Source: Heliomicrobium modesticaldum Ice1 (GTDB lineage Bacteria; Bacillota; Desulfitobacteriia; Heliobacteriales; Heliobacteriaceae). Taken from it: a stretch of DNA of 64,000 nucleotides. Position 1 is the stretch's first letter, and every line of letters begins with the position of its first letter. Shown here one piece after another: positions 1,218-12,776 of this stretch. A model generated the notes under the pieces. That model had not been told where the DNA came from and did not search any database. It saw nothing but the letters and a program-made list of their open reading frames with translations. Where the stretch lies: assembly GCF_000019165.1 (NCBI RefSeq), contig NC_010337.2, positions 2,194,501 through 2,258,500 of the forward strand, written 5' to 3'. A program made the position numbers and the translations under genes.

Positions 1218-2294
1218 ATGACTGACCAAAACATTTTTATGGCGATCAGCGGCTTCCTGCGGTCCTTTCTCGGCCCCTTGCTGGGTAACGACCTCACCGA
1301 TATCGTCATGTACGGTGCGGGGCTGCTGGGCGTCATCATTTTTATCTTCACCAACGCCGTTGTCTTGGTGCTAATGGAACGGAAGGTGGCCGCCTTCATG
1401 CAGTCCCGTCTCGGCCCCAACCGGGTAGGTCCCTGGGGTCTCTTGCAGACGGTGGCGGACACGCTGAAACTGCTCGTTAAGGAAGACTACAAGCCCCATA
1501 AGGTCGACCCCTGGGTCTGGGCCTTGGGTCCGGTATTGCTGTTCGTCCCGGCCATCGGCGCTTATGCCGTCATCCCTTTCGACGATCAAGCGGTTCCTGT
1601 GGACCTCAACATCGGCATCTTCTACTTTATCGCCATATCGTCCTTGTCGACGCTGCCCTTTCTGATGGCCGGCTGGGGTTCCAACAACAAGTACTCCCTG
1701 ATCGGCGGCATGCGCTCTGTGGCCCAGATGATCAGTTATGAGGTTCCCCTGATCTTTTCGCTCATCGGCGTGATCATGCTGGTCGGCTCTCTTCAGATGT
1801 CCGCCATTGTGGAGGCGCAGCACCGCATCTGGTTCGTCTTCCTGCAACCGGTCGCCTTCCTGATCTATGTGATCGCGGCGACGGCGGAGACCAACCGGAC
1901 ACCCTTTGACCTTGTTGAGTGCGAGGGGGAAATCATCGCCGGTCCCTTCACGGAATACTCGGGCATGCGCTGGGCCATGTTCTTTTTGGCCGAATATGCC
2001 AACCTCGTCGCCGTATCGGCCATCGCCACGACTCTCTTTCTCGGGGGCTGGCAGCCGCTGCCCCTGCCGGGAGCACTGGGCGACCTGATGGCCTTTATTC
2101 CGGGTTGGGCCTGGTTCGCAGGGAAGACCTATTTCATGATCTTCCTCTTCATGTGGTTCCGCTGGACCTTCCCGCGTTTCCGCGTTGACCAACTGATGGC
2201 CTTCGGCTGGAAAGTCTTGATTCCCCTGTCGCTGGCGAACATCCTGGTCACCGGGGTGGGGATCTATCTCTACCGCATGGCGATAGGAGGGTAA
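1218..2294 (+). CDS. nuoH: NADH-quinone oxidoreductase subunit H
   Basis: 358-residue multi-pass membrane protein that joins the peripheral arm to the membrane arm and forms much of the quinone chamber. Recognisable motifs are [19 protein letters not shown] near residue 55 and the acidic loop [17 protein letters not shown], a NuoH hallmark thought to link quinone chemistry to proton pumping. I place the start at ATG 1218, because GGTGGGAG at 1203-1210 is a well-spaced ribosome binding site; an upstream in-frame GTG at 1203 lies inside that site. Eight or so hydrophobic segments are visible. Confidence 0.95.
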
Positions 2295-2297
2295 TGG

Positions 2298-2741
2298 ATG
2301 CAAGGCAAAGGTTTGCTCACCGGGATGTGGGTCACCCTCAAGGAGTTCTTCCGCAAAAAAGTGACCGAAGAGTACCCCGATGTGATGCCTGACTTGGGCG
2401 ATCGTTTCAGGGGCGGCACGCTGAAACTGCAGACGAGCAAGTGCATCGCCTGCGGGATCTGCCAGAATGCCTGTCCTAACGGATCGATCAAGCTGACGAG
2501 TGTCAGGGATGAAAACAACAAACGCAAGTTGAGCACCTATGTGCATGATGCCGGGTTGTGCCTCTTTTGCAACCTCTGTATCGATGCCTGTCCGGTGAAG
2601 TGCATCGATTGGACAGGCGAGTTCGCCTTTTCAGGTTATTCCCGGGAAGACCTGGTCTTCGATTGCATCGAGCTGGCCCGTAGGCGTGGCTATGATGTGC
2701 CCGAGGTCAAGGAACCCCCGGCAGATGGGGAGAAGGGGTGA
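2298..2741 (+). CDS. nuoI: NADH-quinone oxidoreductase subunit I (2x[4Fe-4S] ferredoxin-like)
   Basis: 147 residues with two CxxCxxCxxxCP clusters (CIACGICQNACP and CLFCNLCIDACP), which bind the N6a/N6b [4Fe-4S] centres carrying electrons toward NuoB. An amphipathic N-terminus precedes the clusters, as usual. GGAGG sits 7 bases before ATG 2298. In complexes that lack NuoEFG, NuoI is the outermost Fe-S subunit and a plausible docking point for ferredoxin or another soluble donor; that role is inference here. Confidence 0.95.
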   Translation: MQGKGLLTGMWVTLKEFFRKKVTEEYPDVMPDLGDRFRGGTLKLQTSKCIACGICQNACPNGSIKLTSVRDENNKRKLSTYVHDAGLCLFCNLCIDACPVKCIDWTGEFAFSGYSREDLVFDCIELARRRGYDVPEVKEPPADGEKG

Positions 2742-9206: not shown

Positions 9207-10880
9207 TTGCTCGCCCGCGTCCATAGCGTTGTATTAGAAGGACTGAACGCGCAGCCGATTGAAGTGGAGGTCGATGTGGCCAATGGTCTTCCGGCCTTCG
9301 ACCTTGTCGGTTTGCCTGCTACGGCTGTGCGGGAGGCCCGAGAGAGGGTTCGATCAGCCTTACGCAACAGCGGTTTCGAGTTTCCTTTGCGACGGATCAC
9401 TGTCAACCTAGCGCCTGCTGATGTGCGCAAGGATGGTTCGGGACTCGATGTACCTATTGCCATTGGGATTCTGGCGGCGACCGGCCAAATCGATGCAAGT
9501 CGTCTTCGGGACTGGTTTCTCGTGGGGGAATTGGCCCTCGATGGCGCCATTCGACCTGTGAGCGGCGTACTGGCCATGGCATGGGGACTGGCTCGAACCT
9601 GGCAGAGGAGATTGGAAGGTATAGAAGGAGATATATGTAAAGAAAGCCTCCATAAAACAAAGGTGCGCGGCGGCGCTACATTGATGAAGTTGCTTGTGCC
9701 CGAAGCCAATCTTGCCGAGGCTTCTCGGGTCAACGGGATCGAGGCTGTTGGTGCCGCTCTATTAAAAACTGCTGTAGAATGCCTGATAGGCCAATCACCT
9801 ACCTTTTCTCCCGTTGCTTCTCAGAAAAGACAAGTGAGAAAGGCTCTCTATTCACGGGCATCAGCCAACACTGTGGGACTGTTCCCCTCGGGCATACCTG
9901 ACTTGGCCGCTGTACGCGGCCAAACTGTCGCCAAGCGAGCACTGGAGATCGCCGCTGCCGGCGGGCACAATCTGGTCCTCATCGGACCGCCCGGAACGGG
10001 GAAAACGATGTTAGCCCGTTGCCTGCCCGGGATCCTTCCGCCGATGACCGACGAGGAAGCGATGGAAACGACAATGATTTACTCCGTCGCCGGCGCTTTG
10101 CCGGAAGGCGTCGGATGGGTGGACAGCCGGCCTTTTCGGACACCCCACCATTACACGACAATGGCGGCCCTTGTCGGCGGAGGGCGTCCGCCTCGACCCG
10201 GCGAGATCAGCCTGGCCCACAACGGTGTTCTGTTTATGGACGAGTGGCCTGAATTTTCACGGGAGGCACTGGAGGCGATGCGCCAGCCTTTAGAAGACGG
10301 GCAGGTCACTATCGCCCGACAAGGCGGCGCCGTCACCTTCCCTGCCCGTTTCATGTTGCTGACAGCCATGAATCCCTGTCCCTGCGGCCATCTCGGCGAT
10401 CCCGAGAAGGAGTGCCTCTGCTCTCCTGTCTCAGTAGAGCGTTATCGCAACCGGATTTCAGGACCCCTGTGGGACCGGATGGACCTGCAGGTGGCGGTGA
10501 CCCGTCCCACCTATAAGGAACTCGTCGATGCTACGACAGGGCCTCTAGCGGGAGAGGAGAGTTCGGAGACCGTCTTAAACCGGGTGATCGAGGCCCGGAA
10601 GCGGCAGTGGCATCGCAACCGAGCGCTAACACAGCGTCTGCCGCTGTTACAGAATCAACCAGCCGTCTGCAATGCCCACTTGGATGCTGAATCGTTAAAA
10701 AAAGTTGCGGAACTTGACAGCGAAAGCGAGACTTTGTTATCGCAAGCCTACCGGCGTCTTGGACTGAGCGGCCGGGGGTTGCATCGCATCTTGAAGGTTG
10801 CTCGGACTATAGCTGATTTAGACGGCGCTGAGAGAATCGGCCGGATCCACTTGGCGGAGGCGTTGCGTTTTCGGTTGTAA
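9207..10880 (+). CDS. comM: YifB/ComM family Mg-chelatase-like AAA+ ATPase
   Basis: 557 residues from TTG 9207, eight bases or less behind GGAGG. Domains: N-terminal ChlI/Lon-protease-like domain with the family opening LARVHS and the GLPAFDLVGLP motif, then the AAA+ ATPase with Walker A GPPGTGKTM near residue 260, the FMDEWPEF Walker B region and the NPCPCG motif, and a C-terminal helical Mg_chelatase_C domain. ComM is a hexameric branch-migration helicase for natural transformation in Vibrio. The protein is about 50 residues longer than usual; an extra segment near residues 130-160 (about 9595-9690) interrupts the expected join between the N-terminal domain repeats and is more AT-rich than its surroundings. 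Confidence 0.93.
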   Translation: MLARVHSVVLEGLNAQPIEVEVDVANGLPAFDLVGLPATAVREARERVRSALRNSGFEFPLRRITVNLAPADVRKDGSGLDVPIAIGILAATGQIDASRLRDWFLVGELALDGAIRPVSGVLAMAWGLARTWQRRLEGIEGDICKESLHKTKVRGGATLMKLLVPEANLAEASRVNGIEAVGAALLKTAVECLIGQSPTFSPVASQKRQVRKALYSRASANTVGLFPSGIPDLAAVRGQTVAKRALEIAAAGGHNLVLIGPPGTGKTMLARCLPGILPPMTDEEAMETTMIYSVAGALPEGVGWVDSRPFRTPHHYTTMAALVGGGRPPRPGEISLAHNGVLFMDEWPEFSREALEAMRQPLEDGQVTIARQGGAVTFPARFMLLTAMNPCPCGHLGDPEKECLCSPVSVERYRNRISGPLWDRMDLQVAVTRPTYKELVDATTGPLAGEESSETVLNRVIEARKRQWHRNRALTQRLPLLQNQPAVCNAHLDAESLKKVAELDSESETLLSQAYRRLGLSGRGLHRILKVARTIADLDGAERIGRIHLAEALRFRL

Positions 10881-11005
10881 GGGATCGAAGAAAGGAACAG
10901 TTGCTGCCTTACAAATAAAGAACAAATTCAGAACTTTTTGCAGGATTTAACCATTATTTCGTCAAAATACGTCATCGAAGCAAAGAATGGTGGGGTGATT
11001 CGGGA

Positions 11006-11314
11006 GTGGAAGAAAAAAAGCTGGGCAATGCCGCTTCAGGAGCCGTTACATTGCTTGAACTGAGAAATCAGGTATCTAGAGACGCCGAGTTGGCTCCGCT
11101 TTATGCCGATGCATTGCTTACCAAGAAGCAGCAACAGCGCTAGGCCTTGCGGGATGTCGCCGTTGCTGCTGCCAAGTTGGCCATGGATGTTCCCGAAAGC
11201 AAGGGTCAGTTTGTAACGATAAATATGCTCGATCTGCAGCGCTTGTGTGAGTCGCTCTTCGCTCTTAATCAGATTGATGAGGAATTGAACGCTGTCGGTG
11301 AAATGGAAGATTAG
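11006..11314 (+). pseudogene. Small ORF interrupted by one in-frame TAG (unknown function)
   Basis: From GTG 11006, behind GGGGTG at 10992-10997, a frame of 45 codons reaches TAG at 11141-11143 and continues without further stop for 56 codons to TAG at 11312-11314. The upstream half reads like a helical, Leu/Ala/Gln-rich segment ending in KKQQQR; the downstream half (ALRDVAVAAAKLA, then MLDLQRLCESLF) has the same amphipathic character and an acidic end. A rho-independent terminator follows 10 bases later, which supports one transcription unit. The simplest reading is a nonsense mutation, perhaps CAG to TAG after QQQR. Readthrough, or a second protein starting at ATG 11183, is possible. I do not recognise the family. 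Confidence 0.5.
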
Positions 11315-11323
11315 GCGGAATCA

Positions 11324-11358
11324 ACCCCTCTGCCCAAAGCGGTAAGGAGGGGTTTTTT
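11324..11358 (+). terminator. Rho-independent terminator after the small interrupted ORF
   Basis: ACCCCTC (11324-11330) pairs with GAGGGGT (11347-11353), followed by a run of T residues. The loop is 16 bases. It ends transcription of the 11006-11314 unit before the dprA promoter region. Confidence 0.8.
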
Positions 11359-11639
11359 CTTGACGAATTTTCCTACATTCTGTTGGAAAATGTGTCACCA
11401 GGACAAAAAGGAATTCTATCTTCATAGTCGAATAAGTAGGCGATTTCATTGCCTCTTAAAGACCCTACCCTCACCCGATATGTATCGTCGCCACAACAAG
11501 TTGTGAAGATGACCACAATTTTTCGGGCCTTTGCTTGACAGGGATTGGATAACCCGTTACTGTAGATATCGTTCGATGGTACGATTATCCAGACAGGTCA
11601 GGGAAGCAGGGCGCCGGTGATAGAGAGGGGACGAGACCT
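11359..11639 (+). promoter_or_regulatory. dprA upstream region with candidate promoter and operator-like palindrome
   Basis: A non-coding stretch. TTGACA at 11535-11540 is a perfect -35 hexamer; TACTGT at 11558-11563 is a weak -10 at 17-base spacing. Upstream lie an inverted repeat CACAAC-aa-GTTGTG at 11492-11505 and a looser one, ATTTTCC at 11367-11373 with GGAAAAT at 11485-11391 region (arms 11367-11373 and 11385-11391). Either could be an operator, but no regulator is identified. No coding potential is seen. Confidence 0.4.
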
Positions 11640-12776
11640 ATGACCCACCCTCCGGCTTTATCAGAGCGGGATAGTTGGATTGCGCTGTCCGCGCTGCCCG
11701 GTATCGGACCTCGGCGGTTTTATGCCCTCTTAGGGCATTTTGGCACGGCCCGCAACGCTTGGCTGGCCGCAGATGAGCGCTGGGACGGTGTGGCCGGTCT
11801 AAGCCGGCAGGGTTGGGAGCGAACGTTGCAGGCGAGGCGGCGCGCCGATCGGGTGACTGTGCTGTTGCGCCGCCTTACCCAGGGTGATATTGCCGCCGTC
11901 CTCCTTATCGATGAACAATATCCCGCGCTCTTGCGCAGTATTCCCGACCCACCGCCTGTACTGTATGTGCGAGGAAAGCTCACGGCCGAAGATGAATCAG
12001 CCTTCGCCATCGTAGGCACTCGCAAGCCCTCTGCATACGGCGTGAAAGCCTGCGCTGCCATTGCCAGGGACCTGGCGCAACATGGACGAACGGTCGTCAG
12101 CGGCATGGCCCGCGGCATCGACGGGATCGCCCATCAAAGCGCCCTGGAGGCGGGAGGACGAACGATTGCCGTCTTGGCCGGAGGCGTCGACGTCATCTAT
12201 CCGCCGGAACATGGCAAATTGGCCAGCCGTATCGTGGAACAGGGCGCATTGGTGAGCGAATACCCGCCGGGGAAGCGTCCCGAACCGGGTACTTTTCCGG
12301 TGCGCAACCGGATTATTTCAGGGCTCTCGAACGGTGTCATCGTCGTCGAGGCGGGGGAGAAATCAGGTGCGTTGATCACCGCCGATCAGGCTTTGGAGCA
12401 GGGGCGCGATGTCTTTGCTGTGCCGGGGCCGATCACACTGCCACAGAGCATAGGGACGAACCGGTTGATCCAGCAGGGCGCCAAGTTGGTCATCACCGTC
12501 GAAGACATCCTCGATGAGGTCCAACGTCAACTGACCCTGCCCTTATCCGCGCCTGCACACTCTTCCGACGAACAACTTTCGGAGAATCGGCTTTCATCTG
12601 ATCAGTCCGAGGCGGAGCGCCGGATTCTGGAAATCCTTGACTGGGAGCCGAGAAGCGCTGATGAGTTGGCCGCCCGGTTGGGTCTTTCTGGGTCGGAGGT
12701 GGCTGCGGCCTTGACACTGCTGGAATTGAAGGGGCGCGTTCAAATGGAGCGGGGCGGCGGTTTTGTCGCCGTCTAG
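11640..12776 (+). CDS. dprA: DNA-processing protein DprA (Smf)
   Basis: 378 residues. N-terminal helix-hairpin-helix/SAM-like region (SALPGIGPRRFYALL), a central Rossmann-like DNA-binding domain (AIVGTRKPSAYG, VSGMARGIDGIAHQSAL, LAGGVDVIYPPEH, SEYPPG) and a C-terminal winged-helix domain (RILEILDWEPRSADELAARLGL). DprA protects incoming single-stranded DNA and loads RecA during transformation. Together with comM it suggests competence or general recombination functions. The position directly before topA matches B. subtilis smf-topA. Confidence 0.96.
   Translation: MTHPPALSERDSWIALSALPGIGPRRFYALLGHFGTARNAWLAADERWDGVAGLSRQGWERTLQARRRADRVTVLLRRLTQGDIAAVLLIDEQYPALLRSIPDPPPVLYVRGKLTAEDESAFAIVGTRKPSAYGVKACAAIARDLAQHGRTVVSGMARGIDGIAHQSALEAGGRTIAVLAGGVDVIYPPEHGKLASRIVEQGALVSEYPPGKRPEPGTFPVRNRIISGLSNGVIVVEAGEKSGALITADQALEQGRDVFAVPGPITLPQSIGTNRLIQQGAKLVITVEDILDEVQRQLTLPLSAPAHSSDEQLSENRLSSDQSEAERRILEILDWEPRSADELAARLGLSGSEVAAALTLLELKGRVQMERGGGFVAV

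Follow-up and report, generated by a model that had tools for sequence, protein, structure and literature searches.

A small gene interrupted by a single in-frame stop codon raises the question of whether the stop has inactivated the gene, is decoded as an amino acid, or separates two short proteins. A frame of this kind is located in Heliomicrobium modesticaldum Ice1, within the stretch of 64,000 nucleotides analyzed in this study (hereafter referred to as the window), the host contig being a single one of 3,075,407 bases. An earlier note on this DNA had described 102 codons with one internal TAG at position 11141, and had considered a fresh nonsense mutation, programmed readthrough or amber recoding, and two short proteins as explanations. 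Translation of positions 11006–11314 confirmed the description: the frame extends from GTG 11006 to the final TAG at 11312 and comprises 102 codons plus the terminal TAG, with the TAG at codon 46 as its sole internal stop (Table 1).

Table 1. Features of the interrupted gene, given as positions in the window.
Feature	Position	Strand	Remarks
Promoter-like element GCAGGATTT-N12-GTCAAAATA	10940–10969	+	Resembles the sigma-H consensus
Purine-rich ribosome binding site GGTGGGGTGA	10989–10998	+	Read directly, before GTG
Truncated reading frame, 45 aa	11006–11143	+	Starts with GTG (the nearest relative has ATG), ends at the premature TAG
Premature TAG, codon 46	11141–11143	+	Gln codon (CAG, CAG, CAA, CAG) in four intact relatives
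Remaining 56 codons of the once-intact gene, with the terminal TAG	11144–11314	+	Conservation persists in comparison with relatives
Intrinsic terminator with T6 tail	11323–11358	+	Fold and shuffles

Distribution of the Gene and the Glutamine Codon at Position 46

Taken alone, the frame is weak proof of a gene, since base composition gives a probability of about 0.10 that 101 codons in a row contain no more than one stop. It is because homologues exist that the frame represents a real gene. Among the 61 genomes searched, convincing matches were obtained in the genome itself and in four relatives, the latter with E-values between 5.7e-48 and 9.8e-21 and all of them free of stops, so that the TAG at codon 46 was present in the own copy only. 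The reading of the frame as a mere product of chance, which length and composition alone would allow and which the earlier note had linked to the lack of homologues for either half, thus has practically no probability: it is already refuted by these homologues, and it is likewise contradicted by the conservation of the glutamine and its surrounding motif and by a dN/dS ratio well under 1 after the stop.

The intact relatives are two genomes of the same genus (G001 and G002, 82 and 70 percent identical, respectively), Heliobacterium chlorum DSM 3682 (G004, 53 percent), and Heliobacterium mobile DSM 6151 (G008, 52 percent). The same five genomes were recovered when 82 genomes of the class were searched with a profile; the gene was not found in G003, G005, G006, and G007, which also belong to the family. 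The wide contig scan, which covers 84,980 genomes by its description and may omit near relatives, returned only H. chlorum and H. mobile. As far as the searched genomes reach, the gene therefore appears to be restricted to Heliomicrobium and Heliobacterium, which are soil bacteria that harvest light. Four weak matches in the 61-genome search (E-values between 0.04 and 0.62), as well as a further one in G001 from the profile search (E 0.0019, inside a 661-codon frame), were treated as chance.

The codon at the place of the TAG specifies glutamine in all four intact homologues, three of them featuring CAG, as the earlier note had anticipated for the case of a mutation. This glutamine is embedded in QRQALRDVA, a motif that the four proteins share without variation. 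A fresh nonsense mutation, the first of the explanations originally offered, is accordingly the one best supported. In the literature, no publication on the gene was found by a search on the species and heliobacterial nonsense mutation.

Expression Signals and Transcription Unit

Upstream of the ribosome binding site, a promoter-like element was identified, resembling the sigma-H consensus RNAGGAWWW / RNNGAATWW as quoted in the part of PMC8510167 consulted. Each of the five genomes has a counterpart of the element, located 57–65 bases ahead of the point where the scanned upstream stretch ends, while the sequence around it has diverged. Four of these genomes have the −35 half in full, and G002 lacks one position of it; the −10 half is incomplete throughout, featuring 5 or 6 of the specified positions. 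The loose consensus is common by chance, with 17 sites in the window scoring at least 13/15 on both strands. The strict form of the element, derived from this gene, was detected at three sites genome-wide, compared to none for a reversed-pattern control. The two other strict-form sites (L097 1501–1528 and L098 1501–1528) are each located just ahead of an open reading frame, the products of which we take to be a glyceraldehyde-3-phosphate dehydrogenase and a beta-propeller-like protein. From its sequence, the element is presumably used by sigma-H, and this hints at a transition-state or sporulation-related expression of the gene.

The ribosome binding site and the terminator claimed in the earlier note were both recovered. 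Within the former, GGTGGGGTG is conserved in the two nearest relatives. The G+C-rich terminator stem after the final stop reached −21.1 kcal/mol (z −3.07), with one of 200 shuffles being as good, and is common to the three genomes examined (the own genome and its two nearest relatives). Consensus promoter and terminator scans of the region 10800–11700 returned no sites, the terminator apparently having been missed because its stem has a bulge, and an Rfam search of the same region gave no match. Since the promoter-like element and the terminator are conserved, the gene is considered to represent its own transcription unit. In the strain studied here, promoter element, ribosome binding site, and terminator are all undamaged.

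Genomic Neighbourhood

The gene is flanked by comM (9207–10880) and dprA (11640–12776). It is linked to both genes in G001; in G002, the linkage is to dprA and to part of a comM gene. In Heliobacterium, five neighbouring proteins were tested and none was located close to the gene, so that the neighbourhood is uninformative regarding function.

The comM-like gene of G002 (L004, approximately 1987–2385, minus strand) matches only ComM residues 329–467 at 53 percent identity, no long open reading frame is listed for this stretch, and it may represent a remnant. In H. chlorum (L018 5255–7659), the gene is not close to comM and dprA; it resides between a divergent open reading frame, presumably nitroreductase-like, and one of 420 amino acids, which is followed by a frame that we assume to encode an SNF2-type helicase-like protein.

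Decoding of the TAG Codon

Programmed readthrough or amber recoding at codon 46 would yield the full 102-residue protein, and both the otherwise open frame and the conservation running past the stop are in line with it. The TAG, however, is not conserved at this place in the homologues, all four of which have a plain Gln codon. The pylS search suggested in the earlier note was negative: the model for the N-terminal part of PylS (TIGR03912) had no match in the genome, and the C-terminal model (TIGR02367) had only three matches below the cut-off, the best with 28.1 bits against 178.15; of 14 control genomes, 13 were also matched by this model, one of them above the cut-off. The release factor RF1 is intact (562.7 bits; cut-off 423.25).

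The tRNA model search detected 94 tRNAs, and ARAGORN named 94 on those loci; none of the 94 has a CUA anticodon, ten of the 104 tRNA genes given for this genome in the part of PMC7143216 consulted lying outside this set. A pattern combining the CUA anticodon with the T loop occurred at 28 sites, compared to 33 for the control pattern, and none of the 28 was called a CUA tRNA by ARAGORN. TAG is furthermore the normal terminator of the gene itself and of 13 of the 51 long open reading frames in the window, so that general TAG suppression would extend many genes. Considering these results, decoding of the TAG as an amino acid is highly improbable, and the suspected recoding site most probably reflects a nonsense mutation of the ordinary kind.

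Selection Downstream of the Stop

Compared to G001, the part of the gene after the stop showed a dN of 0.038 and a dS of 0.27, and the part before the stop a dN of 0.13 and a dS of 0.28. In this pair comparison, the downstream part is, as judged from the substitution rates, under purifying selection. With G002 as outgroup, two amino-acid-changing and five silent differences after the stop were assigned to the own branch, and two and three, respectively, to the branch of G001, these counts omitting three silent differences that could not be assigned. The own branch is thus much like its sister branch, and there is no sign of decay after the stop. Neutrality over the whole own branch had a probability of P 0.007, and over half of the branch of P ~0.04, values that assume background ratios of 0.14 or 0.2.

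A very recent change would be expected to leave selection after the stop unrelaxed, and the conservation would weakly bound the age of the stop. The continued conservation of the downstream part leaves three readings: a recent stop, a sequencing error, or a gene whose remainder is still translated. Regarding the last of these, an undecayed downstream part is also what continued translation would give. It is very improbable that this strain still produces the full-length protein, or the second half of it, in small and perhaps regulated amounts through UAG readthrough or re-initiation at UUG 11147; if true, this would explain why the sequence after the stop is conserved.

The main rival of a nonsense mutation, absent from the options of the earlier note, is an error of base calling or assembly in the chromosome as published, with the gene being intact in the living strain. 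One substitution would suffice for such an error, the gene is intact in all relatives, conservation after the stop is undiminished, and the control signals are all intact. Our literature search on the species found no publication on resequencing. We consider an error of this kind rather unlikely; if it did occur, the reference genome needs correcting at 11141–11143.

Predicted Fold and Consequences of the Truncation

The structure model of the intact H. chlorum homologue consists of helices at residues 2–11, 16–49, and 63–85, with a mean pLDDT of 85.8 for a three-row alignment. The glutamine at the place of the stop corresponds to residue 35 of this protein, in the long helix 16–49. Because the stop lies within this helix, the 45-residue product would probably be inactive. 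On the basis of the model, inactivity is the most likely state of the truncated product, and folding of it is unlikely.

The same model bears on the possibility of two short proteins, the second being re-initiated at TTG 11147 or ATG 11183. TTG 11147 begins three bases past the stop, near enough for termination-reinitiation, and the downstream part is conserved; however, neither start is preceded by a convincing Shine-Dalgarno sequence, TTG 11147 is simply codon 48 of the full-length gene, which specifies a conserved Leu, and the split would cut one predicted helix. This option of the earlier note is therefore extremely unlikely.

Searches for the identity of the protein were carried out with the frame of the window and with its homologues. 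No Pfam family was matched by the frame of the window with X at the stop. For the four intact homologues, the best Pfam match was DeaD_dimer (E 0.0087, in two of the four members), and the best E-values in the NCBIfam and PDB sequence searches were 0.12 and 0.83, respectively, all of which were treated as chance. Foldseek returned no matches at E ≤0.001 for the model of the intact homologue. The rows obtained with VIA-align represented a mixture of unrelated helical proteins with Z ≤9.8, within the range common for helical models, and were rejected as relatives.

Proposed History of the Gene and Comparison with Known Systems

Taken together, the locus is best read as a small gene, found among the searched genomes only in Heliomicrobium and Heliobacterium, that has undergone a fresh nonsense mutation; this reading is a probable one. 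The ancestral state would have been an intact single-gene unit composed of the promoter-like element, the ribosome binding site, a gene of approximately 100 codons, and the terminator, with a small protein, predicted to be all-helical, as its product. One nonsense change at the conserved Gln codon would then have shortened this product to 45 residues in H. modesticaldum Ice1, breaking the long central helix and removing the last one, which would most likely leave it inactive. The change appears to be real in the strain and recent, and the function appears to be lost. The locus points to an uncharacterised small gene of the heliobacteria, equipped with a conserved promoter-like element of its own and probably missing in the model strain for heliobacterial genetics.

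Among known proteins, the best Foldseek rows corresponded to the MazG-like NTP pyrophosphohydrolase DR2231, which the model resembles in its all-helical arrangement (E 0.19, TM 0.50). The match of the gene's homologue to DR2231 is, however, not significant, and the protein is not assigned to any family. With pyrrolysine or otherwise amber-recoded genes, the locus shares an in-frame TAG beyond which the coding sequence goes on, but it differs from them in that no PylS and no CUA tRNA were found in the genome, and the relatives carry glutamine instead of TAG. Eight putative pseudogenes are listed for this genome in Table 1 of PMC7143216, the part of that publication consulted. The likeness is to pseudogenes arisen by nonsense substitution, with which the gene shares a single premature stop, intact relatives, and intact flanking signals.
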